A DNA stretch of 64,000 nucleotides from Croceibacterium aestuarii (GTDB taxonomy: Bacteria > Pseudomonadota > Alphaproteobacteria > Sphingomonadales > Sphingomonadaceae), in assembly GCF_030657335.1 (NCBI RefSeq), contig NZ_CP131039.1, forward strand, positions 1,628,501-1,692,500, written 5' to 3'. Below, piece after piece: positions 2,738-40,288 of this stretch (positions are counted from its first letter, which is position 1; each line of letters starts with the position of its first letter). A model generated the notes under the pieces. It saw nothing but the letters and a program-made list of their open reading frames with translations. It was not told the origin of the DNA and did no database searches. Both the position numbers and the translations under genes were made by a program.

Positions 2738-4012
2738 TTAGGGCTTTCCACCGGTCGCGACGGCGCCAGACCCGGATTCCTTGTGAGCAAGAATTCCCAC
2801 AAGCAAGACGGCTGCAGCTGATAGTCCGGCCGGAATTGCAAATAGCGACATGACGGTGGTCTCGCGGACATGGGCCGCGATGGCGAGTCCGATCAGGATC
2901 GGAGCGATTATCGTGCCCACTCTTCCGACGCTCTTGGTCAGGCCGATGCCGATGGCGCGCAAGTGGTCCGGGTAGTAGGTGGCGAGGACGAAATTGACCC
3001 CGCCATAGGCTCCGAGAAAGAAAAAGCCGCCGGTCACCAGCATGACCATCAAGGCGGTGGAGGATGCCGTCGCCAGTGACCGGCCAATCATGAAAAGCAG
3101 CACGGTGGCGAGGGCTAGGAAGGTAACCAGCACCTGCGTCCCGCCGAAGCGGTCGATCAGTACCCCGACCCCAAGAGCCGCGATGATTCCGCCGAGCGAG
3201 AAAATGGTGACCGAAAGGGCGGCGAACGATTGGTCGCGGCCGACTTCGACCATCAAGGTGGGAAGCCATGAGCTGAGGCAGTACTGCACCGTGAGCATGG
3301 AAATGAACATCAGCCATAGCAGGAGCGTGCCACCCAGCAGGGGGGGCGAGACGACTTCGAGCGCACTCGATCGCCTCATGCTTCTGCCGTCGCTCTCGAC
3401 TCCGGCTTCCTCGTCGACGCCGCGCAGCCACATCCATGCCGCCACGGCGGTGGCAGCCGAGACCGTACCGACGATGCCGATGGCGATCCGCCATCCTCCT
3501 GCGTCGAGGAAGGCGGAAGCGAGAATGCCAGAAGCCGTCGCGCCAGAGCCATAGCCGGTGAACAGCATCATAACCGAAAGCCCTTGGCGGCCGGGCGGAG
3601 AGACCCTGGTCACGATAGCCAGGCAGCTGGGCATGCATCCGCCCAGGAACACACCGTCGATCAGACGGAATGCAAACAGCGAATTCCCGTTCCAAGCCAG
3701 CGCGGTCGCATATTGTGCGAGGCAGAAGCCGATCACGGCAAGGATCACCACGATGCGGTGTCCGTAGCGATTGGCGAGCAAGGGGAAAGCCAGCAGGCCG
3801 AAGGTCTGGCCGATCAGGTTGGCGGAGAAGATTGGACCGAGAGTTGTCGGCGAGAGACCCAGCTCCTGCGAAATTTCCGGGGCCATCGGGCCGAGCACGG
3901 TGTGAATAAGGCCGTCGAGGAAGAACACCGCCGAACAGACCCCGATAACTGCGAGGCTGGAGGCGCTGAACCTATGCGCCAGGTCGCGTTGGTCCGTCAT
4001 TGCTTGCGCCAT
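2738..4012 (-). CDS. MFS transporter, aromatic acid:H+ symporter (AAHS) type
   Basis: A 424-residue inner-membrane protein with about twelve hydrophobic segments. It fits the major facilitator superfamily: the loop between helices 2 and 3 reads LLANRYGHRI (the GxLADRxGRR signature), helix 4 has an Arg followed by a Gly-rich run and MPSCLA, and the equivalent second-half loop is LIDRFGG. The MPSCLAIV stretch and overall layout resemble the AAHS family (PcaK/BenK/MhpT), which imports aromatic or small organic acids with protons. The ATG at 4012 is preceded by GGAGAGGA; an internal ATG at 4000 is an alternative. It diverges from the TonB receptor at 4230, with the shared palindrome at 4085-4102 between them. 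It probably carries the same substrate across the inner membrane. The substrate itself cannot be read from the sequence. Confidence 0.85.
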   Translation of the reverse strand: MAQAMTDQRDLAHRFSASSLAVIGVCSAVFFLDGLIHTVLGPMAPEISQELGLSPTTLGPIFSANLIGQTFGLLAFPLLANRYGHRIVVILAVIGFCLAQYATALAWNGNSLFAFRLIDGVFLGGCMPSCLAIVTRVSPPGRQGLSVMMLFTGYGSGATASGILASAFLDAGGWRIAIGIVGTVSAATAVAAWMWLRGVDEEAGVESDGRSMRRSSALEVVSPPLLGGTLLLWLMFISMLTVQYCLSSWLPTLMVEVGRDQSFAALSVTIFSLGGIIAALGVGVLIDRFGGTQVLVTFLALATVLLFMIGRSLATASSTALMVMLVTGGFFFLGAYGGVNFVLATYYPDHLRAIGIGLTKSVGRVGTIIAPILIGLAIAAHVRETTVMSLFAIPAGLSAAAVLLVGILAHKESGSGAVATGGKP

Positions 4013-4084
4013 CGATCCTCTCCGGCCTCTTGCCGAGCCCGCGAACTCCAGTCCGGTTTGTGCAGTATGGTCGGTTGATGGCCT

Positions 4085-4102
4085 GTCCTCTCTGCAGAGG
4101 AC
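4085..4102. promoter_or_regulatory. Putative LuxR-type operator GTCCTCT-N4-AGAGGAC (site 1)
   Basis: GTCCTCT (4085-4091), spacer CTGC and AGAGGAC (4096-4102) form a perfect 7-bp inverted repeat. The same arms with the same 4-bp spacing recur at 9655-9672. This copy lies in the divergent region between the MFS gene (start 4012) and the TonB receptor gene (start 4230), where one bound regulator could act on both promoters. The likely binder is the LuxR-type protein encoded at 9765-10544; that link is inference. Confidence 0.65.
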
Positions 4103-4149
4103 CGGGCGATGTGAAGCCCTGCATTTCCCCGGCAGCAGAAAGCCGAATT

Positions 4150-4167
4150 GTCCTCTTGTTCACGGAC
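4150..4167. promoter_or_regulatory. Degenerate second operator copy
   Basis: A perfect left arm, GTCCTCT at 4150-4156, is followed after 4 bases by CACGGAC, which keeps only the last four bases of the right arm. It sits exactly 65 bp from site 1, about six helical turns, and 63-80 bp upstream of the TonB receptor start. It may be a weak secondary site. Chance is not excluded. Confidence 0.35.
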
Positions 4168-4229
4168 AGACCCCCTTTCGGCCGAGGCTTACGCTCTTCG
4201 CCGAAAATGGAAGTTGGGGAGGAAAATCA

Positions 4230-6491
4230 GTGAAACGGACGTTGATTCTAAGCGTGCCTTTCCTTGCTCTGCAGGTGCTCGGCGCGACTGCGGCTCAGGC
4301 ACAGTCGCAGGACGCAAAGACCGACGAAGCCGCGCGCACTTCCGACCAGGGTCTTGGCGATATCGTGGTGACCGCGCAGCGGCGTACCGAAGACTTGCAG
4401 AGGGCCGCTCTGTCGATCACCGCGGTTTCGGGCGACAAGGTCATCGAGCGGGGTGTGACTCAGGTCGAGCAGCTCGCCACGCTGGCTCCGGGCCTTCAGG
4501 TCAACACTTCGGCTGGACCATACGCTTCGTTCTCGATCCGCTCGGTCAGTTCGCTCAGCGGCAACGCCTTCGCCGATTCCGCCGTGGCGATGAATTACGA
4601 CGGCGTCTACCTCGCGACCCCGACCATCCTCAACGGGCTCTACTACGATCTTGAGCGGGTCGAGATTCTCAAAGGACCGCAGGGCACCCTCTATGGCCGC
4701 AATGCGACCGCCGGCGCGATCAACGTCATACCGCGCAAGCCCGAGTTCACCACCGGCGGCGATGCCAACCTCCAGGTCGGCAACCTCGGCCGGTTCAATA
4801 TCGGCGGCGCGATCAACGTGGCGGCCAAGGACACAGTCGCGGTACGCTTCGCCGGCCAGCATGTGCGTCGCGACGGCTTTATGAGCGACGGCACTTCCGA
4901 CGACAACGGCGATGCCGTCCGCGGCTCGATCCTGATCGAACCGACTCCGGACCTGTCGATCCTGATGATGGCCGATTACTCGCATCAGGGCGGGCGCGGG
5001 CCCGGCGCCACGATCCGCAAGGAGTGCGCCAAGATCGGCCTGACCGGCGGCGCCTGCTTCGTTGCCGACCCCTACACGGGGATCGCCGACCTTGCGAGCG
5101 AGTACACCTCGGTCGGCGAGGCGCCGCCGACGCAGAACCAGTTCATCGATGGTGATTATGGCGGCGCGCTGCTCAACATCGACTACCGCACGGCAATCGG
5201 CACGCTGACCTTTCTTGGTGCCTATCGCGAGGCAGAGAGCGCCTATGTCGGGACCGGCACGAGCTGGCAGTTGCGTGAAACGCAAAAGCCACGCCAGACG
5301 TCTGGGGAACTCCGGCTGGCATCGGACGGGGGAGGCGCGCTGCAATACGTGTTCGGTCTCTATTATCTGTCGACCACGATGGACTCGCGCTCACAAAGCG
5401 AGAGCCTCAACAACAAGCGCTTCAGCGATTCCTTTACTCACAACGAAGGCTGGACCTGGGCCACCTTCTCGCAGCTGACCTACTCGGTGAGCGACGTGCT
5501 ACGTCTGACCGGCGGACTTCGTTACACCTACGAGCAGAAAAAGACGAATTCGCAGCGTTACAACCTGCTCAACACCGTCGGCCCCGACCCGGTGATCCCC
5601 GACACGCCGAGCGGCGTGCCCACCATCGACATGAATCTGAAAAAGAGTTGGGACGCGGTGAACTGGAAGGCCGGCATCGAATTCGACGCCGCCCCGGAGA
5701 GCCTGCTCTACGCCAACGTCTCAACGGGATTCAAGGCGGGCGGGTTCTACTACGGACCTCCCGGCGCGAACACTTACGAGCCCGAGCACGTCACGTCCTA
5801 CGCGATCGGCAGCAAGAACCGCTTCGCCAATGACAGGATCGAGCTCAACATCGAGGGCTACTACCTCGACTACACCGACCAGCAGGTCTCTTTCGTCAAG
5901 CTCGTCGGGCCCGGCTCGGTCGTGTTGGTAACCGAAAACGCCGGCAAGACGACCGCCTACGGCGTCGACGTGGACAGCCAATTCCTGCTTGGCCGGGACA
6001 CTCGTATCGGACTGTCGGGCAGTTGGGTCCACGCACGCTACGACCAGTTCGACTACGATACCGTGGCGCCTCCCAGTTCGACGACGCTGTGTACCGTCGG
6101 GCCGCCGTTCCCGTTCAACGTCGACTGCTCGGGCTTGCAGCCGTTCCGGACGCCCGAATGGACTGTCACCGGCACTTTCGACCAGAGCTTCGACCTGGCC
6201 GATGGCGGCCGCGTGTTCATGGACGCGCTGGGACAGTACAAGTCGGCTTTCTATGCCGACACGAGCTACCAGATCGAGACGCTGACCAACGAATCCTTCC
6301 GGGCGAACTTCGGGCTCGGGTACGAGGACCCCCAGCGCCGCTATCGCATTCGCGCCTTTGTCGACAACGCGTTCGACGAGGTGACGATTTCGAACGCCAC
6401 GGTCAACACTGCCTATAGCCAGAACAACATCGTCGGCGTCAATCTCCTCGCCCCGCGTACTTACGGCATCCAGGCCTCGGCCAATTTCTAG
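4230..6491 (+). CDS. TonB-dependent outer-membrane receptor
   Basis: A 753-residue receptor for active uptake across the outer membrane using TonB-ExbBD energy. It has a signal peptide (MKRTLILSVPFLALQVLGATAAQAQ), a TonB-box-like GDIVVTAQRR near residue 46, a plug domain with the typical VEILKGPQGTLYGRNATAGAINV stretch (longer than needed to classify it), and a 22-strand barrel ending in the aromatic Phe of QASANF. The GTG start at 4230 is chosen because GGGGAGG lies just upstream. It heads an apparent operon with the CMD-family protein (9-bp gap) and the class II aldolase. That placement suggests it imports the island's substrate rather than iron. The upstream palindrome points to control by the LuxR-type regulator. 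Confidence 0.92.
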   Translation: MKRTLILSVPFLALQVLGATAAQAQSQDAKTDEAARTSDQGLGDIVVTAQRRTEDLQRAALSITAVSGDKVIERGVTQVEQLATLAPGLQVNTSAGPYASFSIRSVSSLSGNAFADSAVAMNYDGVYLATPTILNGLYYDLERVEILKGPQGTLYGRNATAGAINVIPRKPEFTTGGDANLQVGNLGRFNIGGAINVAAKDTVAVRFAGQHVRRDGFMSDGTSDDNGDAVRGSILIEPTPDLSILMMADYSHQGGRGPGATIRKECAKIGLTGGACFVADPYTGIADLASEYTSVGEAPPTQNQFIDGDYGGALLNIDYRTAIGTLTFLGAYREAESAYVGTGTSWQLRETQKPRQTSGELRLASDGGGALQYVFGLYYLSTTMDSRSQSESLNNKRFSDSFTHNEGWTWATFSQLTYSVSDVLRLTGGLRYTYEQKKTNSQRYNLLNTVGPDPVIPDTPSGVPTIDMNLKKSWDAVNWKAGIEFDAAPESLLYANVSTGFKAGGFYYGPPGANTYEPEHVTSYAIGSKNRFANDRIELNIEGYYLDYTDQQVSFVKLVGPGSVVLVTENAGKTTAYGVDVDSQFLLGRDTRIGLSGSWVHARYDQFDYDTVAPPSSTTLCTVGPPFPFNVDCSGLQPFRTPEWTVTGTFDQSFDLADGGRVFMDALGQYKSAFYADTSYQIETLTNESFRANFGLGYEDPQRRYRIRAFVDNAFDEVTISNATVNTAYSQNNIVGVNLLAPRTYGIQASANF

Positions 6492-6500
6492 GGGAGAGAA

Positions 6501-6875
6501 ATGAGCGCAGCGGACAACGAGCGGGAAAAACGGGGCCTGGAAATCCTCCAACAGCTGGGTTGGGGGCACAACGAGGGCACCCGCGACCTCGACGAGGACC
6601 TCTGGCGGATCGTGACCGAGACCAATTTCGGCACGATATGGTCGCGCCCGGGACTTTCGCTACGTGAGCGCGAACTGATCTGCATGGCGATCCTGATCGC
6701 ACGCGGCGCGCATGGCGTGGCGATGCACTTCAAGAACGCTCACCACGTCGGCTTCACCGACGACGAACTGAAGGAGGTCGTCTTGCAGACGATCCCCTAC
6801 GCCGGGCTTCCGCGTGCGCTTGGTGCCATGGCTCTGCTCAAGAAGACGCTCAACGGCGAGGAACCCGAGTTGTGA
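6501..6875 (+). CDS. Carboxymuconolactone decarboxylase (CMD) family protein
   Basis: A 124-residue single-domain protein. The motif RERELICMAILIARG, then MHFKNAHHVGFTDDELKEVVLQ and IPYAGLPRALGAM, is the classic pattern of PcaC-type gamma-carboxymuconolactone decarboxylases. The CxxC of AhpD peroxidase relatives is absent, which favours a decarboxylase/isomerase-like role over a redox one. It follows the TonB receptor by 9 bp and overlaps the next gene by 4 bp, so it is surely co-transcribed. No other protocatechuate-branch gene is present, so the true substrate is probably not carboxymuconolactone; it may act on a related beta-keto or lactone intermediate of this pathway. Confidence 0.85.
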   Translation: MSAADNEREKRGLEILQQLGWGHNEGTRDLDEDLWRIVTETNFGTIWSRPGLSLRERELICMAILIARGAHGVAMHFKNAHHVGFTDDELKEVVLQTIPYAGLPRALGAMALLKKTLNGEEPEL

Positions 6876-7690
6876 GCGTGCTGCAAAGGGAATCGTCCGG
6901 TCCCGGCAATGTCGTCGAATCCAGCCCGCACGCCGTGAAACCGGCCGACTTCTCGGCCGAGGAATGGGCCGTGCGCGTCGATCTGGCGATCGCCTACCGG
7001 TTGTTCGACTGGATGGGCATCACCGACCTCATTCACACGCACATCTCTGTTCGCGTGCCGGGTGCGGACGAACAGTTCCTCCAGCTGCCCTATGGCCATC
7101 TGTTTCACGAGGCTCGCGCGTCCGACATGGTCAAGGCGGACCCGGCCGGCGGCATCATCTCTGATCCCACCGGCCTCGGCATAAGCCGCGGCGGCTTCGC
7201 CATCCACAGCGTGGTGCACATGAACCGTAAGGATGCGGCCTGCGTGATGCACGCGCACACCGAAGCCTCGATCGCCGTCGCCAACTATCGCGACGGCCTC
7301 CTGCCGCTAACGCAGCACGCGCTGCGGTTCTACGGCAAGACCGGATACCTCGCTTACTGTGGCCTGTTCGATTCCGAGGAAAAGCGCGCTTCTATCGCGA
7401 GGGCGCTCGGCAATGCCGACGTGCTGATGTTGCGCAACCACGGACCACTTGTCATCGGGCAGACTGTCCGCGAGGCATTTTCGCGTATGTACTACCTAGA
7501 ACGGGCGTGCCGTATGCAGGTCGCGAGTCTGTCGCAATGTACCGACCCCGACAAGGAGCTGCTCTACATCAGCGCCGAGGATTGCCGGGCCATGGCGGCC
7601 GCATTCGAGGGCGGCGAAAGCGTGATCGACCGCGAATGGAACGCGCTGGTACGGATGCTCGACAAGACCAACCCTGGCTACGACGAGTAG
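6872..7690 (+). CDS. Class II aldolase/adducin family protein
   Basis: A 272-residue metal-dependent lyase of the fuculose-aldolase fold. The expected metal ligands are visible: H127 and H129 in VMHAHTE, and H190 in LRNHGPL. The fold motif THISVRVPG occurs near residues 56-64. Family members cleave aldols or, in some aromatic pathways (for example dihydroxyphthalate decarboxylases), remove a carboxylate. The GTG start overlaps the CMD gene stop. Its 3' end overlaps the convergent dehydrogenase gene by 13 bp. Its place beside a CMD-family protein, a 2-hydroxyacid dehydrogenase and a BKACE suggests C-C bond cleavage or decarboxylation of a hydroxy or keto acid. Confidence 0.85.
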   Translation: MSVLQRESSGPGNVVESSPHAVKPADFSAEEWAVRVDLAIAYRLFDWMGITDLIHTHISVRVPGADEQFLQLPYGHLFHEARASDMVKADPAGGIISDPTGLGISRGGFAIHSVVHMNRKDAACVMHAHTEASIAVANYRDGLLPLTQHALRFYGKTGYLAYCGLFDSEEKRASIARALGNADVLMLRNHGPLVIGQTVREAFSRMYYLERACRMQVASLSQCTDPDKELLYISAEDCRAMAAAFEGGESVIDREWNALVRMLDKTNPGYDE

Positions 7691-8637
7691 GCCGCCTCAG
7701 TAAAGTAAGGGGTCAGCAGTGGTTCGCCGGCGTAATAGCGGCGGATGTTTTCGCGCAGCTGCCCGAACATGTCCCGGCCCGCTTCCTGCGTGAAGCCGGC
7801 GATGTGCGGGCTGAGCACGACGTTGGGAATGTCGCGCCACAAGGCGGCGTCGGTCGGCTCCTCAACAAACACATCGAGACCGGCTCCGCCGAGGGTTCCT
7901 TCGGATAGCGCCGCGCGCAGGCCGTCCTCGTCGACCAGCATTCCGCGGGTAATGTTGACAAGCACGCCTCGCGGCCCGAGCGCATCGAGTATCCGTCGGT
8001 CGATCAGCCCTGCGTTTTCGGGGCTGATGGCGCAGGCGAGAAACAGCGCGTCCGCCCATTTGGCGAGCTGCTCAAGGCTGTCAGCACGTCCGTACGCCGC
8101 GCCCCGCTTCTCGCGCGGTCCCCACCAGCGCACGTTCATCGCGTGGGCGGCCGCGCGCGATGCGATCTCCGAGCCGATGCGGCCCAGGCCGACCACGCCT
8201 GCGTTTCTGCCGCGTAACGAGCGCCGGGGCGCGAGGCCTTGGCGGAAGCCCGCCTGCCAGCCACCCTCGCGGACCATTGCATCGGCCCCGATGACGCCAT
8301 GCCGTTGCGCCAGGAATAGTGCGATCGCCTGGTCTGCAACATCGTGTGCATTGACGCCCGCGGCGGTTGTCAGCTGGATGCCACGCCGTTCGAGCAATGC
8401 CGTGTCTATCGCCTCGATACCTGTCGAGAAGCAGGCCAAAAGGCGCAGCTCCGGCAAGCTCTCGATCAGCTTCGGATCGAAGGTGCTGCCGACAGTGACG
8501 AGGACTTCGACCGAACCGAGGACGTCATCCGGCAGGCCGGCGGCGATGTCCTTGGGTCCGAGGAGCGGGAGGTCGTCGTTCCACTCTGCAGCACGGTCGA
8601 ACAGAAACCCCGGCTGGACGATAAGCGGTGCCGTCAC
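7678..8637 (-). CDS. D-isomer-specific 2-hydroxyacid dehydrogenase
   Basis: A 319-residue NAD(P)-dependent oxidoreductase. The Rossmann motif VVGLGRIGSEIA lies at residues ~148-158. The catalytic Arg is in VNITRG (R231), the acid in VFVEEP (~E259/E260) and the general base in LSPHIAG (H278), so the triad is complete. The pair VRWWGPREK after the second strand carries Arg and Lys, hinting at NADP rather than NAD. The gene follows the BKACE gene by 4 bp on the same strand and is co-transcribed with it. It probably interconverts a 2-hydroxy acid and its 2-oxo acid in the island's pathway; the exact substrate is unknown. Confidence 0.9.
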   Translation of the reverse strand: MTAPLIVQPGFLFDRAAEWNDDLPLLGPKDIAAGLPDDVLGSVEVLVTVGSTFDPKLIESLPELRLLACFSTGIEAIDTALLERRGIQLTTAAGVNAHDVADQAIALFLAQRHGVIGADAMVREGGWQAGFRQGLAPRRSLRGRNAGVVGLGRIGSEIASRAAAHAMNVRWWGPREKRGAAYGRADSLEQLAKWADALFLACAISPENAGLIDRRILDALGPRGVLVNITRGMLVDEDGLRAALSEGTLGGAGLDVFVEEPTDAALWRDIPNVVLSPHIAGFTQEAGRDMFGQLRENIRRYYAGEPLLTPYFTEAAYSS

Positions 8638-8641
8638 CCCG

Positions 8642-9538
8642 TCAGATCCCGAATCGCTCGCGCGCTTCCTCGACCGTGGCCGGCGCCATGCCGAACAACG
8701 CGCCGATCTCCTTCGCCTTGCTCACCATTTCGTGGTTATGCGCGGCAACCGATCCGTCGGGTAAGTGGATCCCGTCCTCGAAACCGACGCGCACGAGATC
8801 GCATTGCATCGACAGGCCGAGCGTGACCATCTTGAACATTTCGCGCCCGGTCGAGGTGATGCCGAAGATTGCCTGGGGAAAGTAGCGGAGGCCTTCCTCG
8901 ATGTTGAAAAGCAGGTTGCGGGTTATGGCGGGAACCGCCCCGAATCCGCCGCCATGGAGCAGCCAGATGTTCTTCCTGTTGCGATCGAACAACCCCTCCT
9001 CGGCATAGCGCACCAGGCGGTGAATCACGCTGGCCTCGACCACTTCATATTCAAGCGCCGAGCCCCGGGCGTAGACTTCCTTGATGGTCGAGCGCAGAAA
9101 TTCCGGCGAGTTCACGTACGGCGTTTCCCTGTGATAGCCGCCTTCCGGGTGATAGAAATCGGCCGATCCGGCCGCGACGCCAAACACATCGGGCTTGGGA
9201 TCGATGTTGAGCAGACCGAGCCGTTCTTCATCGGTTGGCCAAATGAAGCCCCCGGTCGCCGGGTCGCGCCGCACGCCGATCCCGTTGGTGGTCTGCACCA
9301 GGACCGGGCAGCGCTTGCGGATCTCTCGAATGATCTCGGCATAGATGGCTGGGTCACCGGAGTTCTTGCCCTGCGGGTCGCGCGCGTGGACATGCACCAG
9401 CGAAGCGCCAGCCTCGTAGCAGCGGGCGGCGGCCTCGCCCAGCTCGGCCGGCTGCTTGGGCACGATCGCTCCGTCTCGATCCTGCTGCATACCTCCGTTC
9501 AGCGCGACGGTGATGATGAACTTATTGCCTGCAAACAT
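8642..9538 (-). CDS. BKACE family beta-keto acid cleavage enzyme
   Basis: A 298-residue TIM-barrel protein of the BKACE (DUF849, Kce-like) family. Known members use Zn2+ to condense a beta-keto acid with acetyl-CoA, releasing acetoacetate and a new acyl-CoA. The metal-binding residues are visible as H49 and H51 in LVHVHARDP, and the conserved Glu in VRVGFEDG (about E254). NGGM replaces the usual TGA-like N-terminal motif, which may signal a divergent substrate pocket. It is the first gene of a two-gene minus-strand unit and diverges from the LuxR-type regulator, with the operator at 9654-9673 between. BKACE specificity cannot be predicted from sequence by eye. Confidence 0.9.
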   Translation of the reverse strand: MFAGNKFIITVALNGGMQQDRDGAIVPKQPAELGEAAARCYEAGASLVHVHARDPQGKNSGDPAIYAEIIREIRKRCPVLVQTTNGIGVRRDPATGGFIWPTDEERLGLLNIDPKPDVFGVAAGSADFYHPEGGYHRETPYVNSPEFLRSTIKEVYARGSALEYEVVEASVIHRLVRYAEEGLFDRNRKNIWLLHGGGFGAVPAITRNLLFNIEEGLRYFPQAIFGITSTGREMFKMVTLGLSMQCDLVRVGFEDGIHLPDGSVAAHNHEMVSKAKEIGALFGMAPATVEEARERFGI

Positions 9539-9653
9539 CCAGATTTCCTTCCCTTGGCGCGCAGACTCTGGCCGATTTGCCGAAAAGTCTGTCCCCTCAT
9601 CGCGCTACTTTGCTGGCCGCTTATGCAGCTAGTCGCGGGCAAAGGTATCGTGC

Positions 9654-9673
9654 TGTCCTCTCGAGAGAGGACA
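9654..9673. promoter_or_regulatory. Perfect 20-bp palindrome, putative LuxR-type operator (site 2)
   Basis: TGTCCTCTCGAGAGAGGACA is fully self-complementary over 20 bp. It contains GTCCTCT-N4-AGAGGAC, identical in arms and spacing to site 1 at 4085-4102. It lies between the divergent BKACE gene (start 9538) and regulator gene (start 9765), so it could serve autoregulation and control of the catabolic genes together. Length and symmetry suit a dimeric LuxR-family DNA-binding domain. Confidence 0.75.
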
Positions 9674-9764
9674 AAGCTGGACGACATCGCGTGTGATTAT
9701 CGATACCAACGAGGTGGGCGCGCCGCTGGGCGGTAAAAAATGCGCTCGAGGAGAGGACGGTTCG

Positions 9765-10544
9765 ATGCCGGAAATCATGCAGATCAATGATCGGCGAATG
9801 CCGGAAGCCATCGGCGGGGCCTACGAGAAACTCTTGCCGAAAATCGGTACCGAGGAGTTCGGCTCGACTGTCCGCGACTGCGTCGCTTCGACCACCGCCG
9901 GCGTGCGCCGGATTTACCTGTTCGAGGCAACTGGCCGGGAACACAGCGACCTGCAGTACTACTTCTGCGAACCGTCGCTGACCGACCATCTGCCAGCCTA
10001 CAGCAAGCATTACCTGCGGCTCGATCCGGTATGGGACGCCTATCGCGCCGCGCCTGCCAATCGTGACATGGCGCTGCTGCGCATCCGACCGCAGGATATT
10101 GCTTCGCCTGGGTTTCGTCACACGTTCTTCGAGGACTGCGGCATCGTCGAACGCGTCTCGGTCATCCAGCGCGGGTCGGACCAGTGGCGGGTTATCAACG
10201 TGGCGCGCCACCAAAACGATGGCTGCTTCAGCGATGCCGAGATTTCCGCCCTGGTCGCGCTGGCGTCGCTAGCGCTGCCGATGCTGCCGCTCAACCGCGC
10301 TCATCAGGCGAAGTGCGATCAACTGACGGTCTTCCAACTCGAGGATCGCTTCGCCGCACGCTTCGAGGACCTGACGGCGCGTGAACGACAGGTCTGCGCC
10401 CGCGCGGCGATCGGCATGAGCGTCGAGGCGACAGCCTTGGATCTCGCGATCGCGAAAACCTCTGTGCTAACCTACCGGCGCCGCGCCTATCACCGCCTCG
10501 GGGTCACCAGCCCTTACGAGCTCTGCTCGCTGGTGACGCATTGA
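9765..10544 (+). CDS. LuxR-family transcriptional regulator of the catabolic island
   Basis: A 259-residue protein with an N-terminal sensing region of ~190 residues and a C-terminal LuxR-type helix-turn-helix (LTARERQVCARAAIGMSVEA onward to LGVTSPYELCSLV). There is no receiver domain, so it probably senses a ligand rather than a phosphate signal. The ATG at 9765 is chosen because AGGAG/AGAGG lies 8-11 bp upstream; an upstream in-frame start at 9693 would add 24 residues and has no such site. The perfect palindrome at 9654-9673 sits in its promoter region and recurs before the TonB receptor and MFS genes, so this protein is the natural candidate regulator of the whole island. The inducer is unknown. 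Confidence 0.85.
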   Translation: MPEIMQINDRRMPEAIGGAYEKLLPKIGTEEFGSTVRDCVASTTAGVRRIYLFEATGREHSDLQYYFCEPSLTDHLPAYSKHYLRLDPVWDAYRAAPANRDMALLRIRPQDIASPGFRHTFFEDCGIVERVSVIQRGSDQWRVINVARHQNDGCFSDAEISALVALASLALPMLPLNRAHQAKCDQLTVFQLEDRFAARFEDLTARERQVCARAAIGMSVEATALDLAIAKTSVLTYRRRAYHRLGVTSPYELCSLVTH

Positions 10545-11076
10545 GTTCACGGCCCTTTCAGCGCAAATCACCAGCCTGAAGCTTGCCGGGTAAGTGAGAA
10601 CTCCGCCAATTTGCGGCAAGCCTCAGCCTCCGGCACGTGGTCTCTCTTTTGGCTTCTCCCGGCACTACCAGGGCAAATGCGCCGGCTAGTAAGGAGCACG
10701 CGGGCAAGGTCGCACGATGCACCGTTCCAAGAAGTGCGTCACCGATCCAATTCCCGCGACTTCTGCACGAACGCTGTCCCTGTTAGCCACTCTGGCGCGC
10801 ACGCGTTGGTCCAGCCTCTTACTGGTCAGAACGTCATCGAGGTCAGCGAGACGCCCAAAAACGAATGGCAGCATCTGTCCGCGGTAAAGATCTCTTCGAC
10901 ATCGCGTCCCAACGGCAGCGGAATCGACCGGACAGACGGGTGCCGCGACGGCAAACGAAAGCTCGCTCGCTGCGGGTCGCCGCAGAGATTGGTTCCGTTC
11001 CAAAGCCCCTTATTGCTGGGGCTGAAATGCTCGATGCCCTCTTGTCGCGGCCTTTGCTGCGGTGCACAATCGCGTT
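10545..11076. other. Intergenic region, no gene recognised
   Basis: This 532-base stretch lies between the LuxR-type regulator and nasT. A 7-bp stem (CTTGCCG 10582-10588 with CGGCAAG 10614-10620) occurs soon after the regulator's stop but has no T-tract. A plus-strand open frame of 162 codons across the region has no recognisable domain and is judged spurious. The nasT promoter must lie in its right half; no clear promoter motif was identified. Confidence 0.5.
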
Positions 11077-11676
11077 ATGAAGGTCGCGGTTGTCGATGAA
11101 AGCCCTGCTCGAGCCTCTATAATCGTCGAGGGGCTGTCACAGCTTCCGGACTGCGAACTGTTCGTCCTGAGCGAGCGCAAGGGCCTGCTCTTCGCGATCG
11201 AGAAAATCGCACCGGACATCGTCCTGATCGATCTGGGCAATCCGTCGCGCGATGTACTCGAAGAATATTTCGTGGTGAGCCGCGCGCTGGCGCGTCCCAT
11301 CGCCATGTTCGTGGACGAGAGCGACGATGATGCGATCGCCGCTTCCATCGATGCGGGAGTGTCGGCGTACGTGGTCGATGGGCTTTCCGCCCATCGCATC
11401 CAGCCGTTGCTGGACCTCGCAGTGCGAAGGTTCAATGCCTTCGCCAGACTTCAATCGGACCTCGCGGAAGCCAAGGGCAAGCTCGCCGAGCGTGACACCA
11501 TCGATCGCGCCAAGCGCATCTTAATGGACAGCAAGAAGGTCAGCGAACCACAAGCCTACGGCGAACTGCGGCGCAAGGCGATGTCGTCCAACAAGCGCAT
11601 TCTCGAGATCGCTGAAGCCGTTGTCACGGCGCACGATTTGCTGGGAGGTGCAGAAATGAAGGGGCAGCGGACATGA
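11077..11676 (+). CDS. nasT: ANTAR-domain response regulator NasT (antiterminator)
   Basis: A 199-residue cytoplasmic RNA-binding regulator. The N-terminal receiver-like domain starts MKVAVVDES and carries the Asp strand DIVLIDLGNPSRD (~residues 49-61). The C-terminal ~60 residues form an ANTAR domain: coiled helix LAEAKGKLAERDTIDRAKRI, then MDSKKVSEPQAYGELRRKAM. In known systems NasT binds paired hexaloop hairpins in leader RNAs and prevents termination, unless NasS holds it when nitrate is absent. The ATG at 11077 aligns with the receiver domain; a start at 11062 would add five residues. Its stop overlaps the nasS start by 4 bp. Both predicted RNA targets lie downstream in this window. Confidence 0.95.
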   Translation: MKVAVVDESPARASIIVEGLSQLPDCELFVLSERKGLLFAIEKIAPDIVLIDLGNPSRDVLEEYFVVSRALARPIAMFVDESDDDAIAASIDAGVSAYVVDGLSAHRIQPLLDLAVRRFNAFARLQSDLAEAKGKLAERDTIDRAKRILMDSKKVSEPQAYGELRRKAMSSNKRILEIAEAVVTAHDLLGGAEMKGQRT

Positions 11677-12881
11677 GCGACCACCTGACGATCGGCTTCC
11701 TGCCACTGGTCGATGCGTGCCTGCCGATCCTGGCGCACGAGCACGGGTTCGCCGAGGAAGAAGGCCTTCGCCTGACATTCGTGCGCGATGTCAGCTGGGC
11801 GACGGTGCTCGATCGCCTGCTTTACGGGCACAGCGATGCGGCCCACTTGATCGCGCCGCTCGCCATCGCCACGACCCTGGGCAGGGGCCGTCCGGCCCAG
11901 CCGCTGTCCGTGCCGTTCGTGCTCGGCCTCAACGGCAATGCCGTGACCCTGGCGAACGAGCTGGCGGCCAAGGTCGTGACGCCGGGTGAACTCGGCGATC
12001 CCAAGGCATGCGGCGAGGCCTTGCGAGCTGAGGCGTTGGCGGCGCTTGCCCGGGGCCGAAGGCTGCGCTTCGGTGTCGTGCATCGCTATTCCAGCCACAA
12101 CTACAAGCTGCGCTACTGGCTGGCGGCGAGCGGAATTCGTCCTGACGAGGACGTCGAGATCATCACCGTTGCACCGCCCTTCGTTGCCGATGCCCTGGCG
12201 AGCGGCGAGATCGACGGCGCCTGTGTCGGCGAGCCGTGGAACAGCGTCTGTGTCGATCGCGGAGTCGGCACCATCGTCCTGGCCACGGCGCAAATCTGGC
12301 GCCGCGGGGTCGAGAAGGCGCTGGCGATGCGCGAGCCGGTGCTCGAAGCCAAGCGTCCGCAGGTCGAGGCGCTAATTCGAGCGATGCGCAAGGCCGGCAA
12401 GCAATTTGTCGACCCGGCCACCTGGGAGGACAGTGCGGCAATCCTGGCGCGCCCCGAGTACCTCGGCGGCGAAGCCAAGCTGATAATGCGCTCGATTTCC
12501 GACCGACTGGTCCTGTCTCAGGGCGCTGAGCCCGTGCATTATCCCGATTTCATGTTCCAGCACAGCGAAGCAGCAAACTTCCCGTGGGTCAGCCAGGCAC
12601 AGTGGCTCTATTCGCAGATGGTGCGCTGGGACCACCTTGAATTCTCGCCCGACGATGCGGCCAAGGCTGCACGGGTGTTCCGGCCCGACGTCTACCGCAG
12701 TGCACTAAAGGGCACGGATGACGCCCTCCCAGGCGCCAATTCGAAAGTCGAGGGGAGCCTCGATCAGCCGCTGCAGGTTAGCACCCAGCAGGGTGTTATC
12801 ACCTTGTCTCCCAACGCCTTTTTCGACGGCAGCTGTTTCGATCCCGAAGATATCGAGGCCTATCTCAAGGCGTTGCCCTAG
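11673..12881 (+). CDS. nasS: Nitrate sensor NasS (NrtA/CmpA-like, cytoplasmic)
   Basis: A 402-residue homologue of the nitrate-binding protein NrtA, but with no signal peptide: it starts directly with MSDHLTIGFLPLVDACLPIL. Family motifs are clear: HRYSSHNYKLRYWLAASGI and IDGACVGEPWNSVCVDRGVGT, closely matching the NrtA encoded at 13104. Known NasS proteins bind nitrate or nitrite and, when empty, sequester NasT. The ATGA overlap with nasT implies translational coupling and a fixed ratio. Loss of the export signal while keeping the ligand-binding signature is what separates sensor from transporter component. Confidence 0.93.
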   Translation: MSDHLTIGFLPLVDACLPILAHEHGFAEEEGLRLTFVRDVSWATVLDRLLYGHSDAAHLIAPLAIATTLGRGRPAQPLSVPFVLGLNGNAVTLANELAAKVVTPGELGDPKACGEALRAEALAALARGRRLRFGVVHRYSSHNYKLRYWLAASGIRPDEDVEIITVAPPFVADALASGEIDGACVGEPWNSVCVDRGVGTIVLATAQIWRRGVEKALAMREPVLEAKRPQVEALIRAMRKAGKQFVDPATWEDSAAILARPEYLGGEAKLIMRSISDRLVLSQGAEPVHYPDFMFQHSEAANFPWVSQAQWLYSQMVRWDHLEFSPDDAAKAARVFRPDVYRSALKGTDDALPGANSKVEGSLDQPLQVSTQQGVITLSPNAFFDGSCFDPEDIEAYLKALP

Positions 12882-12892
12882 AGGAAGGTTCG

Positions 12893-13071
12893 TGCTGCAG
12901 TGCAAAAAAGTGCTTTACCGCCGTGCGGCGAATCAGTTATCACCTCGTCACGAACGGAAGGTCGCACCCGCCGATGGGTGGTCATCTGGCCCTCCATTTT
13001 GATTCAACATTGCGTGGCAACGTAGCCGCCCGATCTGACCCTTAACCGGGTCAAGTCGAGGCGGCTTTTTT
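12893..13071 (+). promoter_or_regulatory. NasT-responsive leader 1 (two hexaloop hairpins plus terminator) before nrtA
   Basis: In order: an upstream element TGCTGCAGTGCAA (12893-12905). Hairpin P1 follows, stem CACCC/GGGTG with a six-base loop GCCGAT (12965-12980). A 33-base linker leads to hairpin P2, stem GTGGC/GCCGC with loop AACGTA (13014-13029), then the terminator. The P2 loop has A at position 1 and G at position 4, the signature of ANTAR targets. The P1 loop keeps G4 but has G1 in place of A. The 3' arm of P2 is the 5' arm of the terminator, so the two structures exclude each other. An alternative hairpin GATG-N6-CATC partly overlaps P1. Expected effect: NasT stabilises P1/P2 and lets transcription reach nrtABCD and the porin when nitrate is present. 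Confidence 0.82.
13025..13071 (+). terminator. Intrinsic terminator of leader 1
   Basis: GCCGCC (13025-13030) pairs with GGCGGC (13060-13065). CGA pairs with TCG inside, and TGACCC/GGGTCA forms the top around a TTAACC loop. Six T residues (13066-13071) follow at once. It lies 33 bp upstream of the nrtA start, so it acts as an attenuator, not as the end of nasS. Confidence 0.88.
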
Positions 13072-13103
13072 GCGTTGTGCGTTTGAGGCCGGAGTGGCGA
13101 GCG

Positions 13104-14543
13104 ATGAAGGGATTTGAGGGTTCGGCGGTGGGACGTAGGAGAGTTATCGCGGCCTTGGTTTCGGCAGCCGCCTGCCTGGCGCTTGCAGGCTGCGGCAGCA
13201 GCAGCGAAACCGCAGCCTCGGAAGATACGGCGGCCGCCGCCAGCCTCGACGGTGCGATTGAGAAGCCGAACGTCAAGCTCGGCTTCATCAAGCTGACCGA
13301 CATGGCCCCGCTCGCCATTGCCAAGGAGAAGGGCTTCTTCGCCGAAGAAGGCCTCAACGTCGAACTCCAGCCGCAAGCCAATTGGAAGGTCCTGCTCGAC
13401 GGCGTGATCGGTGGTCAGCTCGACGGTGCGCACATGCTCGCGGGCCAGCCGCTCGCCGCGACGATCGGCTACGGCACCAAGGCCGACCTGATCGCTCCGC
13501 TCAGCCTCGACCTCAACGGCAACGCGATCACGCTGTCGAACAAGGTTTGGGCGATGATCGAGCCCGAACTGCCGAAAGAAAGCGGCAAGCCGAAGCACCC
13601 GATTTCGGCTGCGGCGCTCAAGCCAGTCGTCGCGAGCTATGAGCGGCAGGGCAAGCAGTTCAAGATGGGCATGGTCTTCCCGGTCAGCACTCACAATTAC
13701 GAGCTGCGCTACTGGCTCGCAGCCGGCGGCCTGAACCCGGGCTACTACACCCCCGGCGACGTCGGCGGCACCGTTGCGGCCGATGTCCCGCTGTCGGTGA
13801 CGCCACCGCCGCAGATGCCGGCGACGCTCGAGGCCGGGACGATCGACGGATACTGTGTCGGTGAGCCCTGGAACCAAGCCGCAGTGCAGAAGAAGATCGG
13901 CGTCCCGGTGATCACCGACGACGAAATCTGGCACGACAACCCTGAAAAGGTCTTCGGCTTGCGTAAGGATTTTGCCGAGAAGTATCCGGCGACGACTGCC
14001 GCGATCCTCCGTGCGCTGATCAAGGCGCAGCAGTGGCTCGACGCCGACGATGGTGCCAACCGTGCCGAAGCGGTGAAAATCCTCAGCCAGTCTAACTACG
14101 TCGGAGCCGATCCCGAAGTGATAGCCGCCAGCATGACCGGCAAGTTCACCTTCGAACCGGGCGACACGCGCGCCGCCAAGGGCTTCAACATCTTCTTCGA
14201 CAAGTACGCCGGCTATCCGTTCTACTCCGATGCCATCTGGTACCTTACGCAGATGCGTCGCTGGGGCCAGATCGCCGACGACAAGACCGACCAATGGTAT
14301 TTCGATACCGCCAAGGCCGTTTATCGCCCGGACCTCTATCTTGCGGCAGCCAAGAAGCTGGCGGCGGATGGCGTTATCCCATCGGCTGCAGTGCCCGAGA
14401 GCGATGGCTTCCGCGGCCCGCAAGGTGGCTTCATCGACGGCGTGACCTACGACGGCAAGGCACCCAACGCCTATCTCGCCAAATTCAAGATCGGCCTCAA
14501 GCAGGGGCAGCGGGTCACCGCCTCGGGCGTCAGCGGCAGCTGA
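13104..14543 (+). CDS. nrtA: Nitrate/nitrite ABC transporter substrate-binding lipoprotein
   Basis: A 479-residue exported binding protein. The start at 13104 gives an export signal with a twin-Arg-like RRRV and a lipobox LAGC (Cys near residue 30), so it is probably a lipoprotein on the periplasmic side of the inner membrane; an in-frame start at 13077 would lie nine codons upstream, inside the post-terminator leader. The body follows the NrtA/CmpA pattern: [23 protein letters not shown], then [15 protein letters not shown] and [20 protein letters not shown]. It delivers nitrate or nitrite to the NrtB permease. It is the first gene after leader 1, so its expression should depend on NasT antitermination. 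Confidence 0.94.
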
Positions 14544-14572
14544 TGAGCTTGGGACTGAACAGGAGTTCGACA

Positions 14573-15634
14573 ATGGCAACCGCATTCGCAGATATGGAGC
14601 AGGGCGAGCCCGGTCTTGCCGAGCCGACCAGCTCCCCGATTTCGTGTGATACGGCCAAAGTTAAGGTCGAGGCGAAGGCAGGGGACAGGCCGAAGACCAG
14701 CCCGGTTGCCGGAAAGATCGGGGGCTGGGCCCGGTCGCTTGCCGCACCGCTGATCGGAATTGCCACTTTCCTCGCGCTCTGGGCGGTGCTGGCGCCGCAA
14801 GTAGATACTTCGCTGGGCGCGCTGCCCGGACCGGCGGAAGTCGCCGAACAGGGCGTCGCGCTCTATGACGAATGGTCCGCCGCCAAGGAGGCCGAGGCGC
14901 AATTCTACGCCCGGCAGGACGCCAGCAACGCGGCAGCGGTCGCTGCTGGCAATCCGGGCGCGGTTCGCGAGTTCGAATATGCCGGGCCGCCGACGTTCCT
15001 CGACCAGGTGTTCACTTCGCTGAAGACCGTCGCTCTTGGCTTCATCCTCGCGACCGTCGTGGCGGTGCCGATCGGCCTGGTCTGCGGCCTGTCGCCCCTG
15101 GTCAACGCGGCAATAAATCCACTGGTTCAGATCATGAAACCGGTCAGCCCGCTGGCCTGGCTGCCCATCGTGACAATGGTCATCTCGGCGATGATCAGCA
15201 ATGCCGATCCGCTGCTGCCCAAGGCCTTCGTGATTTCGGCGCTGGTAGTGATGCTGTGTTCGCTCTGGCCGACGCTGATCAACACGGCCGTCGGCGCCAG
15301 CAGCATCGACAAGGATCTACTCAACGTCGGACGCGTGCTCAGGCTCGGCTGGTTTGCCAAGCTCACCCGCCTGATCCTGCCGGCTTCCTTGCCCTACATC
15401 TTCACCGGCATGCGCCTCTCGCTCGGTGTGGGCTGGATGGTTCTCATCGCGGCCGAAATGCTCGCGCAGAACCCCGGCCTCGGCAAATTCGTCTGGGACG
15501 AATTCCAGAATGGATCGAGCCAGTCGCTCGCCCGCATCATGTTTGCGGTGTTGGTCATCGGCTTCATCGGCTTCGGTCTCGACCGGCTGATGATGTTCCT
15601 CCAGTCGCTCGCCTCCAAGAACCATACGGTGTGA
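14573..15634 (+). CDS. nrtB: Nitrate ABC transporter permease
   Basis: A 353-residue inner-membrane permease. An N-terminal cytoplasmic tail (~60 residues) leads to a first membrane helix. A periplasmic insertion rich in Ala, Gln and Glu (~residues 100-135) follows, then a five-helix permease core with the ABC-contact loop EMLAQNPGLGKFVWDEFQNG near residue 290. The ATG at 14573 is chosen because AGGAG lies 7 bases upstream; an ATG at 14543 overlaps the nrtA stop and is the alternative. It presumably dimerises and is driven by the double ATPase that starts 2 bp after its stop. Confidence 0.93.
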   Translation: MATAFADMEQGEPGLAEPTSSPISCDTAKVKVEAKAGDRPKTSPVAGKIGGWARSLAAPLIGIATFLALWAVLAPQVDTSLGALPGPAEVAEQGVALYDEWSAAKEAEAQFYARQDASNAAAVAAGNPGAVREFEYAGPPTFLDQVFTSLKTVALGFILATVVAVPIGLVCGLSPLVNAAINPLVQIMKPVSPLAWLPIVTMVISAMISNADPLLPKAFVISALVVMLCSLWPTLINTAVGASSIDKDLLNVGRVLRLGWFAKLTRLILPASLPYIFTGMRLSLGVGWMVLIAAEMLAQNPGLGKFVWDEFQNGSSQSLARIMFAVLVIGFIGFGLDRLMMFLQSLASKNHTV

Positions 15635-15636
15635 AG

Positions 15637-17304
15637 ATGGACCAACCGATCCTCTCCTTGCGCGGCGTAACAAAGTCTTATGGCGAGACCAGCGTCCTCG
15701 CCGGCATCGACCTCGATGTTGCCGAAGGCGAATTCGTCGCCATCCTCGGCTTCTCGGGGGCTGGCAAGACCACGCTGATCAACACGGTCGCCGGCTTGGT
15801 CGCACCTGATGCCGGCCAGATCCTGCTCAAGGGCAAGGCGGTCAGCGAACCGGGCAAGGATCGCGGCCTGGTGTTCCAGTCCTACTCGCTGTTTCCCTGG
15901 CTCACCGTGCAGCAGAACGTCGCGCTGGCGGTCGATGCGGTTCACAAGGACCGCAGCCGCGAGGAACGCGCCGCGCTCGTACGCCAGAAGGTCGAACTGG
16001 TCGGGCTCGGCCACGCAATGGATCGCAAGCCGTCACAGCTGTCCGGCGGGATGCGTCAGCGCGTGGCGGTCGCACGAGCCCTCGCCATGGAGCCGGAAAT
16101 CCTGCTGATGGACGAGCCGCTCTCGGCGCTCGATGCGCTGACGCGCGCCAAGCTGCAGGACGAGATCGAGCGGATCCGCAAGGAAGAGGGACGGACCATC
16201 GTGCTCGTCACCAACGATGTCGATGAAGCGCTTCTATTGGCCGATCGAGTTGCTGTTCTGACCCCTTCACCGTCTGCTCGAATAGGTCAGGTGTTCAATA
16301 TTGACGTCGCGCGGCCGCGCGACCGCGAAGAGGTCAACGACGACGCTCACTTCCAGGCCCTGCGCAAGCAGATTGTGTCCTACCTCGGCTCGCTCAACGC
16401 GGAGTCCGGGACGGTCGGCGAAAGTTCGGTCGCGCTGCCCAACGTAACCCCGCTTGACCTTGCACCCCCGCCGCAGGCCTATCGCGATGCGTCGAAGAGC
16501 GCTGTCAAGGATCGCTATCTCGAATTCTTCAAGCTCGACAAGGTCTACCCGACGCCGAATGGGCCGCTCAAGGTCGTCGAGGATTTCAATCTGCTCATGG
16601 ACCGGGGCGAGTTCGTCTCGCTCATCGGCCATTCGGGCTGCGGCAAGTCGACGGTGCTAACGATGGCTGCCGGCCTCAACGAAATCAGCGGCGGGGGCAT
16701 CGTTCTCGACAACCGCGAGATCGACATTGCCGGGCCGGACAAGGCTGTGGTCTTCCAGGCGCCCAGCCTGATGCCCTGGCTGACCGCGCGGCAGAACGTC
16801 GCTCTGGGTGTCGAACGGGTCTATCCGCACGCCTCCAGGGCCGCGCGGCGCGACATCGTCGACTATTACCTCGACCGCGTGGGCCTGGGCGACGCGAAGG
16901 AGCGGATGGCGGGCGAGATATCGAACGGCATGCGCCAGCGTGTCGGCATCGCCCGCGCCTTCGCCCTGTCGCCGCGCTTGTTGCTGCTCGACGAGCCTTT
17001 CGGAATGCTCGACAGCCTAACCCGCTGGGACCTGCAGGACGTGCTGGTCGAAACCTGGAATCGGACCAATGTCACCGCGATCATGGTCACGCACGACGTC
17101 GACGAGGCGATTCTGCTGGCCGACCGGGTGGTGATGATGACCAACGGGCCGAACGCCACGATCGGCAAGATTCTCGAAGTCGACCTGCCGCGCCCGCGCG
17201 AGCGCAAGGCGCTGCTCGATCACCCGAAGTTCTACCGCTACCGGCAGAAAGTGCTGCACTTCCTGGCGGAATACGACCACGGTCCAGCGGCGAAGGCCGC
17301 CTGA
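15637..17304 (+). CDS. Nitrate ABC transporter ATPase, tandem NrtC/NrtD-like fusion
   Basis: A 555-residue protein carrying two complete ABC ATPase domains. Domain 1 (~1-230) has Walker A GFSGAGKTT, signature LSGGMRQRV and Walker B ILLMDEP. Domain 2 (~285-530) has Walker A GHSGCGKST, a variant signature ISNGMRQRVGIARA and Walker B LLLLDEPFGMLDSLTR. In cyanobacteria NrtC and NrtD are separate and NrtC carries a solute-binding tail; here the two nucleotide-binding domains are one chain and there is no solute-binding tail. The ATG at 15637 lies 2 bp after the nrtB stop; the longer open frame upstream belongs to antisense or out-of-frame nrtB sequence. It powers nitrate import. Confidence 0.93.
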   Translation: MDQPILSLRGVTKSYGETSVLAGIDLDVAEGEFVAILGFSGAGKTTLINTVAGLVAPDAGQILLKGKAVSEPGKDRGLVFQSYSLFPWLTVQQNVALAVDAVHKDRSREERAALVRQKVELVGLGHAMDRKPSQLSGGMRQRVAVARALAMEPEILLMDEPLSALDALTRAKLQDEIERIRKEEGRTIVLVTNDVDEALLLADRVAVLTPSPSARIGQVFNIDVARPRDREEVNDDAHFQALRKQIVSYLGSLNAESGTVGESSVALPNVTPLDLAPPPQAYRDASKSAVKDRYLEFFKLDKVYPTPNGPLKVVEDFNLLMDRGEFVSLIGHSGCGKSTVLTMAAGLNEISGGGIVLDNREIDIAGPDKAVVFQAPSLMPWLTARQNVALGVERVYPHASRAARRDIVDYYLDRVGLGDAKERMAGEISNGMRQRVGIARAFALSPRLLLLDEPFGMLDSLTRWDLQDVLVETWNRTNVTAIMVTHDVDEAILLADRVVMMTNGPNATIGKILEVDLPRPRERKALLDHPKFYRYRQKVLHFLAEYDHGPAAKAA

Positions 17305-17443
17305 CGCTCTGGGAGGGGCCGGGGCGGCAGAGGGGCCGCACCCGCGAAACGGATAACGCCGGTTCGTCCGGCTCGAACGGCGGGCAATGGCGCTCGCTTC
17401 CCGCAACGGACCCGGCCGGGTCTCGCCGCAAGGAAAAGCGCCA

Positions 17444-18655: not shown

Positions 18656-18679
18656 TGCGTGGGAGGGTCCTGAAGCAAA

Positions 18680-18702
18680 CGAATGCTGCATTGCAATATT
18701 CG
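18680..18702. repeat. Imperfect 23-bp palindrome at the start of leader 2
   Basis: The pattern is CGAAT-NN-TGCA-T-TGCA-NN-ATTCG, symmetric about the central T. It includes the element TGCTGCATTGCAA (18684-18696), which recurs before leader 1 as TGCTGCAGTGCAA (12893-12905). Only the inner TGCA-N-TGCA core is kept in leader 1. It may be an activator site for a nitrogen regulator. Confidence 0.45.
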
Positions 18703-18859
18703 CTTGCGACCAAAGCGCGAATTGCAGTAACGAACAGGAGATCGGGATATCTGCCCGTCCAGAGTCGGACGATCCGCAAATCCCGGTTTGAAGTTCAACA
18801 TTGCGTGGCAACGGTGCCGCCGGTCTGTCCCTTGTGGGACGCGACTTGGCGGCTTTTTT
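18684..18859 (+). promoter_or_regulatory. NasT-responsive leader 2 (two hexaloop hairpins plus terminator) before nirB
   Basis: It has the same order and spacing as leader 1. The upstream element is TGCTGCATTGCAA (18684-18696). Hairpin P1 starts 72 bp after the element's first base: stem CGTCC/GGACG, loop AGAGTC (18756-18771). After a 33-base linker comes P2: stem GTGGC/GCCGC, loop AACGGT (18805-18820). Both loops have A1 and G4, exactly the ANTAR signature. The block TTCAACATTGCGTGGCAACG (18794-18813) is identical in leader 1. The P2 3' arm overlaps the terminator's 5' arm. It should place nirB-nirD-nasA-cobA under the same NasT switch as the transporter. Confidence 0.88.
18816..18859 (+). 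terminator. Intrinsic terminator of leader 2
   Basis: GCCGCC (18816-18821) pairs with GGCGGC (18848-18853). The inner GTC/GAC and GTCCC/GGGAC stems close a TTGT loop, and six T residues (18854-18859) follow. The upper stem differs in sequence from leader 1 while the pairing is kept, which is good evidence for a selected structure. It ends 37 bp before the nirB start. Confidence 0.9.
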
Positions 18860-18896
18860 GCGTGCGCGCTCAGGGCTTCGGCCCGCGGAGGAAGAG

Positions 18897-40258: not shown

Positions 40259-40288
40259 GAGTGAGAGAACGGCCCCTGCGACCGTCGC

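Follow-up and report, generated by a model that had tools for sequence, protein, structure and literature searches.

The stretch of Croceibacterium aestuarii DNA analysed here (the window, 64,000 nucleotides) carries between positions 2738 and 10544 a cluster of seven genes that probably forms one dedicated regulon for the uptake and breakdown of a single small organic acid, likely of plant or lignin origin. On the reverse strand, the first gene (2738..4012) encodes a major facilitator superfamily (MFS) transporter closest to the aromatic-acid/H+ symporters (AAHS); its best NCBIfam model, TIGR00895 (aromatic acid/H+ symport), scores 204.7 bits, under the cut-off of 418.55. Three forward-strand genes follow and code for a TonB-dependent outer-membrane receptor recognised by Pfam (4230..6491), a PcaC-like protein of the carboxymuconolactone decarboxylase (CMD) family (6501..6875) and a class II aldolase-fold protein (6872..7690). 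A D-2-hydroxyacid dehydrogenase of the 2-Hacid_dh family (7678..8637) and an enzyme of the beta-keto acid cleavage enzyme (BKACE)/DUF849 family (8642..9538), which matches PF05853 with 202.9 bits against a cut-off of 24.8, are again encoded on the reverse strand. The cluster ends with a forward-strand gene for a LuxR-type regulator (HTH GerE). All seven open reading frames are open at the coordinates of the initial annotation, in which the regulator started at 9693, and the intergenic gaps measure, in order, 217, 9, -4, -13, 4 and 154 bases. The two gaps of 217 and 154 bases constitute divergent promoters, and the aldolase and dehydrogenase genes end convergently. For the regulator, a start at 9765 is likelier than at 9693, given an ATG after a GGAG stretch and a resulting length of 259 amino acids (9765..10544), which is the length called in several relatives. 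Apart from this shift, the initial annotation of seven bundled genes of the named families agrees with the reading frames and with the Pfam and NCBIfam scans, which also found no ring-cleavage gene by family among the seven, just as had been stated.

Both divergent promoters contain the palindrome TGTCCTCT-N4-AGAGGACA, which emerged from a search of the intergenic regions. The site between the BKACE and regulator genes (9654..9673) is a perfect palindrome, TGTCCTCTcgagAGAGGACA, and the site between the transporter and receptor genes (4084..4103) reads TGTCCTCTctgcAGAGGACc with one mismatch. A weaker second operator-like site with three mismatches (4149..4168) aligns with similar sites in two related loci (L012 and L013), and the motif is conserved in alignments with L012 to L014. 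When up to two mismatches are allowed, the C. aestuarii genome of 3.35 Mb contains only the two cluster promoter sites and the reversed control none; with up to three, the window holds three sites compared with 0.20 expected from shuffles. Across the 26 loci of this BKACE clade, the 300 bases preceding the BKACE gene contain an operator with at most four mismatches in all 17 loci where an orthologous LuxR gene is in view and in three of the nine where none is (Fisher p = 0.00036, relatedness ignored). In the lignin degrader Sphingobium sp. SYK-6, the MFS gene has at its 5' end the single site with up to two mismatches (1563294), and the BKACE gene is preceded, at a distance of 58 bases, by a site with three mismatches (1551595). 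The occurrence of the operator in both promoters and its tie to the presence of LuxR support a dedicated, LuxR-controlled regulon for import and catabolism; from the sequence pattern we infer that the LuxR-type protein of the cluster is the regulator acting at the palindrome.

The distribution of the genes was followed by means of the BKACE. At E<=1e-60 it was detected in 4 of 296 genomes of the order, C. aestuarii included, with 76% identity in two of the others and 54% in one; a CMD ortholog at E<=1e-40 was present in 3 of 396 order genomes, namely C. aestuarii and the two with the 76%-identity BKACE. The scan of a named genome collection yielded 25 BKACE loci, 23 of them full members. Hosts of the clade include Aurantiacibacter rhizosphaerae, Altererythrobacter, Croceibacterium, Sphingobium nicotianae, Sphingomonas hylomeconis, Novosphingobium and SYK-6 and, outside these, one Microvirga and two assembled genomes labelled Gammaproteobacteria; one more copy resides on a plasmid of Novosphingobium sp. 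KACC 22771. The 26 loci counted in the following are the window, L007, L012 to L034 and L072, excluding two matches of only 34 and 20 residues (L035, L036) as well as L008 and L009, which duplicate the stretches from SYK-6 and Sphingomonas soli.

According to tblastn, all seven gene types are co-located in 10 of these 26 loci (window, L007, L012, L013, L016, L021, L025, L027, L033 and L072), in at least three gene orders and with the model lignin degrader SYK-6 among them. The dehydrogenase of L072 appears to be a replacement with only 36% identity, the CMD gene of L013 contains a stretch of unknown residues, and L007 and L033 are close relatives, whose FAH, MFS2, LuxR2 and LLM proteins are 95 to 99% identical. 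The arrangement of the window recurs in L012 and L013. In L021 and L025 the MFS gene adjoins the BKACE gene and the receptor operon lies further away; L027 is built likewise, with the CMD and aldolase genes swapped. SYK-6, L007 and L016 carry an additional FAA-hydrolase, a second LuxR and a luciferase-like monooxygenase. MFS homologs are present in 17 of 25 loci that were compared by clustering. That seven genes are kept together despite rearrangement is strong evidence of a common function. Hence the genes are not simply scattered among relatives, and the proposal of one unit with its own regulator is borne out by synteny and shared operators; the cluster is real, linked and most likely jointly regulated.

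Other observations weigh against such a unit. Five of the 26 loci contain only the BKACE and MFS genes, with LuxR (L017, L018, L020) or without it (L022, L030), and in two (L015, L026) the BKACE is the only one of the seven types. Five types occur in L029, which has no CMD or dehydrogenase, and in L023, together with a dehydrogenase fragment at the contig end; four occur in L028 on a contig of 4 kb, and both L023 and L028 are short contigs. BKACE is accompanied by LuxR and a partial dehydrogenase in L014, by a partial dehydrogenase in L024 and by a partial MFS gene in L019; L031, L032 and L034 have distant versions with other partners. With so many relatives carrying subsets, the seven types are not obligate partners. 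The Fisher value is optimistic as well, since related loci are not independent and the four-mismatch cut was chosen after the upstream values, all either <=4 or >=6, had been seen. At up to two mismatches the relatives G171, G296, G297, G298 and G299 have 1, 4, 1, 2 and 0 sites compared with 1, 2, 1, 1 and 0 in the controls; those of G297, G298 and G171 lie in or beside the cluster, and the two weaker sites of G296 lie outside it. Three-mismatch counts come nearer to their controls in three comparisons (6 vs 4 in the C. aestuarii genome, 17 vs 12 and 12 vs 6), and weight is therefore placed only on the strong sites and their position. The retention of only one to three of the genes in some relatives would also be expected of chance neighbours without a common function, an explanation that is nevertheless extremely improbable in view of the repeated co-location in different orders and of shared operators which, at up to two mismatches, occur in the C. 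aestuarii genome only at the cluster.

The BKACE of the cluster belongs to a separate clade. In a tree with 25 clade members it forms a branch with 100/100 support apart from 16 paralogs, and in a second tree with eight clade members it stands, with the same support, apart from 65 other members of the family, both trees carrying a long-branch warning. These 65 proteins are a chosen set and not a random sample: 16 paralogs from cluster-bearing genomes, 29 best-match loci and 20 selected lower-scoring proteins, with eight loci of the clade itself skipped. The AlphaFold model of the enzyme (mean pLDDT 82.7, residues 124-140 below 50) matches DUF849 structures, cis-epoxysuccinate hydrolase and ObcA in a structure search, and shares the fold of the BKACE Kce (2Y7D) with a Foldseek probability of 1.00 and a TM score of 0.80 by query length to 2y7e. 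The zinc ligands H49, H51 and E254 and the pair R250/D255 are kept in all 25 clade members; we take them to be Kce His46, His48 and Glu230 and the catalytic Arg226 and Asp231, both the numbering and the Arg/Asp roles being presumed. The equivalent of Kce Glu143 is likewise kept in 25 of 25.

Other active-site positions of Kce are replaced throughout the clade. Position 145, a tyrosine in Kce, is V in 18, I in 4, P in 2 and T in 1 of the 25 members. Tyr is not universal among the 65 others either (Y 29, F 31, T 3, G 2), and a residue other than Tyr or Phe is found in the whole clade compared with five of the 65. Thr106 and Asn108 of Kce, presumably substrate-pocket positions, are Gly and Ala, respectively, in every clade member; Gly occurs at the former in none of the 65 others (S/T in 58) and Ala at the latter in eight (N/D in 49). 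Position 83 is Asn in the clade and in 0 of the 65, and a loop with an invariant arginine, Arg90, is present where Kce has a gap. In a report on BsfD, a DUF849 enzyme that condenses rather than cleaves, Tyr145 is described as the presumed catalytic residue of BKACEs and as replaced by Phe in BsfD, which also has an inserted loop with Arg91 (PMC12871164). Arg90 of the clade aligns with this Arg91, where Arg occurs in 6 of the 65 others. The claim made there that all BKACEs have Tyr fails for the present sample, in which 31 of 65 have Phe, and the argument from position 145 is weakened accordingly. A loss of CoA binding, considered on account of Asp or Asn at the BsfD Lys254 position in all 25 clade members, was dropped, as Asp stands there in 11 of the 65 others too. 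Two small groups of the comparison set deviate in other ways: in L052, L053 and L058, one of them a SYK-6 copy, Ala replaces the first zinc His (3/65), and in a divergent DUF849 group (L107, L110-L113; 5/65) Ser82 is replaced by Gly and position 145 is occupied by Thr or Gly.

The aldolase-fold protein scores 263.9 bits against a cut-off of 207 for the PRK07044 subfamily. An alignment with E. coli FucA and YgbL shows that the three metal-binding histidines (FucA 92, 94 and 155) are kept and that Glu73 and Tyr113 of FucA are replaced by Gly and Gln, as in three of four plasmid relatives. In a structural comparison of its model (mean pLDDT 74.9), 3OCR, adducin, TqaM, pyridine-dicarboxylate decarboxylase, pyruvic oxime dioxygenase (POD) and NovR rank above E. 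coli FucA, and the fuculose-phosphate aldolase 4xxf, which we take to be from yeast, ranks between these matches and FucA. The protein has its fold and the three metal-binding histidines in common with TqaM, POD, NovR and the decarboxylase HMPDdc (2Z7B), and TqaM has Gly at the Glu73 position too, as read by eye from the alignment; in sequence, however, it is closer to adducin and to 3OCR, an entry without stated function, than to these oxygenases and decarboxylases. As described in a study on POD, both Glu73 and Tyr113 are essential in FucA, neither is conserved in the sequence of POD, where residues from elsewhere substitute for them, and class II aldolases of unassigned role may be dioxygenases (PMC11841055). 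By analogy with POD as described there, the two residues may also be replaced from elsewhere in the fold of the present protein. A putative role as decarboxylase or oxygenase is preferred. The aldolase profile, run over the phylum at E<=1e-75, a threshold too strict to be informative, found 1 of 398 genomes (C. aestuarii only), and the neighbourhoods of three more distant relatives, from 111 plasmid records with a match, showed no common pathway.

These residue changes bear on the reactions proposed in the initial annotation, in which the aldolase and the dehydrogenase imply hydroxy/oxo acid intermediates and the BKACE a beta-keto acid late in the route that feeds acetoacetate. Spelled out, this would be a true class II aldol cleavage followed by a canonical BKACE reaction that converts a 3-oxo acid and acetyl-CoA to acyl-CoA and acetoacetate. 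A PF05853 match far above its cut-off, the conserved zinc site, Arg/Asp pair and glutamate, and a CoA-transferase pair in the genome that could use acetoacetate all speak for this chemistry, which is still doubtful given the uniform loss of Tyr145, Thr106 and Asn108 in the clade and of Glu73 and Tyr113 in the aldolase. In the DUF849 family as grouped by Bastard et al., two of seven groups were reported not to be BKACEs (PMC4922564), and family membership is thus no proof of acetoacetate release. In both enzymes the metal site has been retained, and the residues that have changed mean that neither acetoacetate release nor aldol cleavage is implied; the two reaction assignments are weakened to this extent.

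The CMD protein raises the question of a variant end of the beta-ketoadipate pathway, in which it would act as PcaC and the BKACE as a 3-oxoadipate:acetyl-CoA acetyltransferase, as proposed for Methylobacterium. Its best NCBIfam matches are PcaC-containing models and the BKACE matches NF053568, the model for that acetyltransferase; both scores, 76.6 bits for TIGR02425 (PcaC, 4-carboxymuconolactone decarboxylase) and 117.5 bits for NF053568, remain under their cut-offs of 155.7 and 350. A DUF849 gene between pcaG and pcaB has been suggested to act on beta-ketoadipate (PMC8963497). Here, by contrast, pcaB, pcaD and pcaGH are absent from the seven window genes (relatives were not searched for them) and the BKACE pocket is altered, so that this variant is highly unlikely. 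The nearest solved relatives of the dehydrogenase by sequence are 4lsw (D-2-hydroxyacid dehydrogenase), 6pex (aldo keto reductase) and, in third place, 3ba1 (hydroxyphenylpyruvate reductase), and nine aligned sequences keep a conserved Arg, Glu and His, presumably its functional residues.

A regulon for one organic acid would probably operate as follows. The TonB receptor and the MFS transporter would import the acid, and the LuxR-type protein would sense it or an early product, act at the operators of both divergent promoters and switch the genes together. The dehydrogenase would interconvert a 2-hydroxy and a 2-oxo acid; the aldolase-fold enzyme, in which no Glu73 equivalent is aligned, would most likely remove CO2 or oxidise at the metal instead of performing an aldol split; the PcaC-like protein could rearrange or decarboxylate a lactone or enol acid; and the zinc-dependent DUF849 enzyme may cleave or acyl-transfer a 3-oxo acid near the end of the route. 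What has been observed is the set of genes, their linkage in different genomes, the operators and the changed residues; the binding of the regulator to the operator, the substrate class, the step order and every reaction are inferred. A more specific version is offered tentatively and is, on balance, rather unlikely: an undescribed aerobic route in which both enzymes depart from the reactions that their names suggest. The dehydrogenase would supply a 2-oxo acid to the aldolase-fold protein, acting as an iron-dependent oxygenase or decarboxylase, and the DUF849 clade would catalyse a new zinc-dependent reaction of a 3-oxo acid with a product other than acetoacetate. Such a route would be a hidden pathway in a well-studied bacterial lignin degrader. 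The C. aestuarii genome contains, outside the cluster, five LigB-family (PF02900) matches and two intradiol-family matches, one of them under the cut-off, so that, together with the CoA-transferase pair, both an aromatic product and acetoacetate could be used. Two of the LigB-family matches lie close together about 37 kb to the left of the window (G000:C1:1587693-1591738) and may mark an aromatic-catabolism cluster.

Certain relatives have further genes in the unit, for a luciferase-like monooxygenase, an FAA-hydrolase or a thiamine diphosphate (ThDP) enzyme beside a small CxxCH protein, a hint that their substrate may be more complex. The large ThDP-dependent enzyme is encoded at 6212-8493 of L072, about 219-2522 of L029 and about 12436-14700 of L032, the latter two copies being 67% and 60% identical to the first. 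In L072 and L032 the enzyme has a twin-arginine motif close to its start; together with the adjoining small CxxCH-motif protein, this suggests a ThDP enzyme that is exported and coupled to a cytochrome. In the distant versions of the cluster in L032 and L034, a fumarylacetoacetase and an amidohydrolase-like protein lie near the BKACE gene; the fumarylacetoacetase of L034 scores 476 bits, above the cut-off, and its homolog in L032 is 60% identical. L032 also has a CMD protein at 67%. Within the window, a porin-like beta-barrel gene (BBP2_2), to which a second outer-membrane barrel domain also matches, is located to the left of the cluster (46-1683, perhaps to about 2226). Nitrate-assimilation-like genes directly adjoin on the right (11062-21383), with an ANTAR regulator, NMT1-like binding proteins (11673-12881 and 13077-14543, the second recognised by eye), an ABC permease and ATPase and a NirB-like nitrite reductase, and flagellar genes (FliD C-terminal domain, FlhB family) are found at 38837-41749.

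The gene set in SYK-6 is compact and regulated and mutants of this strain are routine, so that its substrate could be found by growth tests, and the operator could be used as a reporter for inducer screening. Furthermore, annotation by family would label members of the DUF849 clade as beta-keto acid cleavage enzymes, a name that may be wrong, and the aldolase-fold protein would be one more candidate among those that may not be aldolases.

No published description of the cluster or its pathway was found in the literature searched, for which the SYK-6 locus tags were estimated from the downstream tonB1 (SLG_14430), a TonB gene recognised by eye, and led to unrelated papers only; this agrees with the earlier statement that it matches no recognised pathway. 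The main text of a paper on the lignin-fragment response of Novosphingobium MBES04 had no match to the terms searched. Several known systems can nonetheless be set beside it. BsfD (9ZSC), from flavophos biosynthesis, resembles the clade in having no Tyr at position 145 and in its loop arginine, whereas the clade is not its sister in the tree and has mostly Val or Ile instead of Phe; moreover, no phosphonate gene is present by family among the seven. For the aldolase-fold enzyme, POD offers a parallel in which Glu73 is missing from the sequence too (PMC11841055). A route through aryl beta-keto acids, for instance the VceA-like cleavage of vanilloylacetate in SYK-6, is unlikely: SYK-6 has three other BKACE genes, and no thioesterase is found by family among the seven, whereas VceB is one. 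That VceA might belong to this clade is nevertheless the main risk to the present conclusions. An organisational counterpart is the cluster for DdvT/DdvK uptake and DDVA catabolism of SYK-6, which presumably includes a ring-cleavage step, LigZ. A TonB receptor, an MFS transporter, catabolic genes and a regulator stand together there as they do here, the differences being a MarR-type regulator and other enzymes (PMC6874591).

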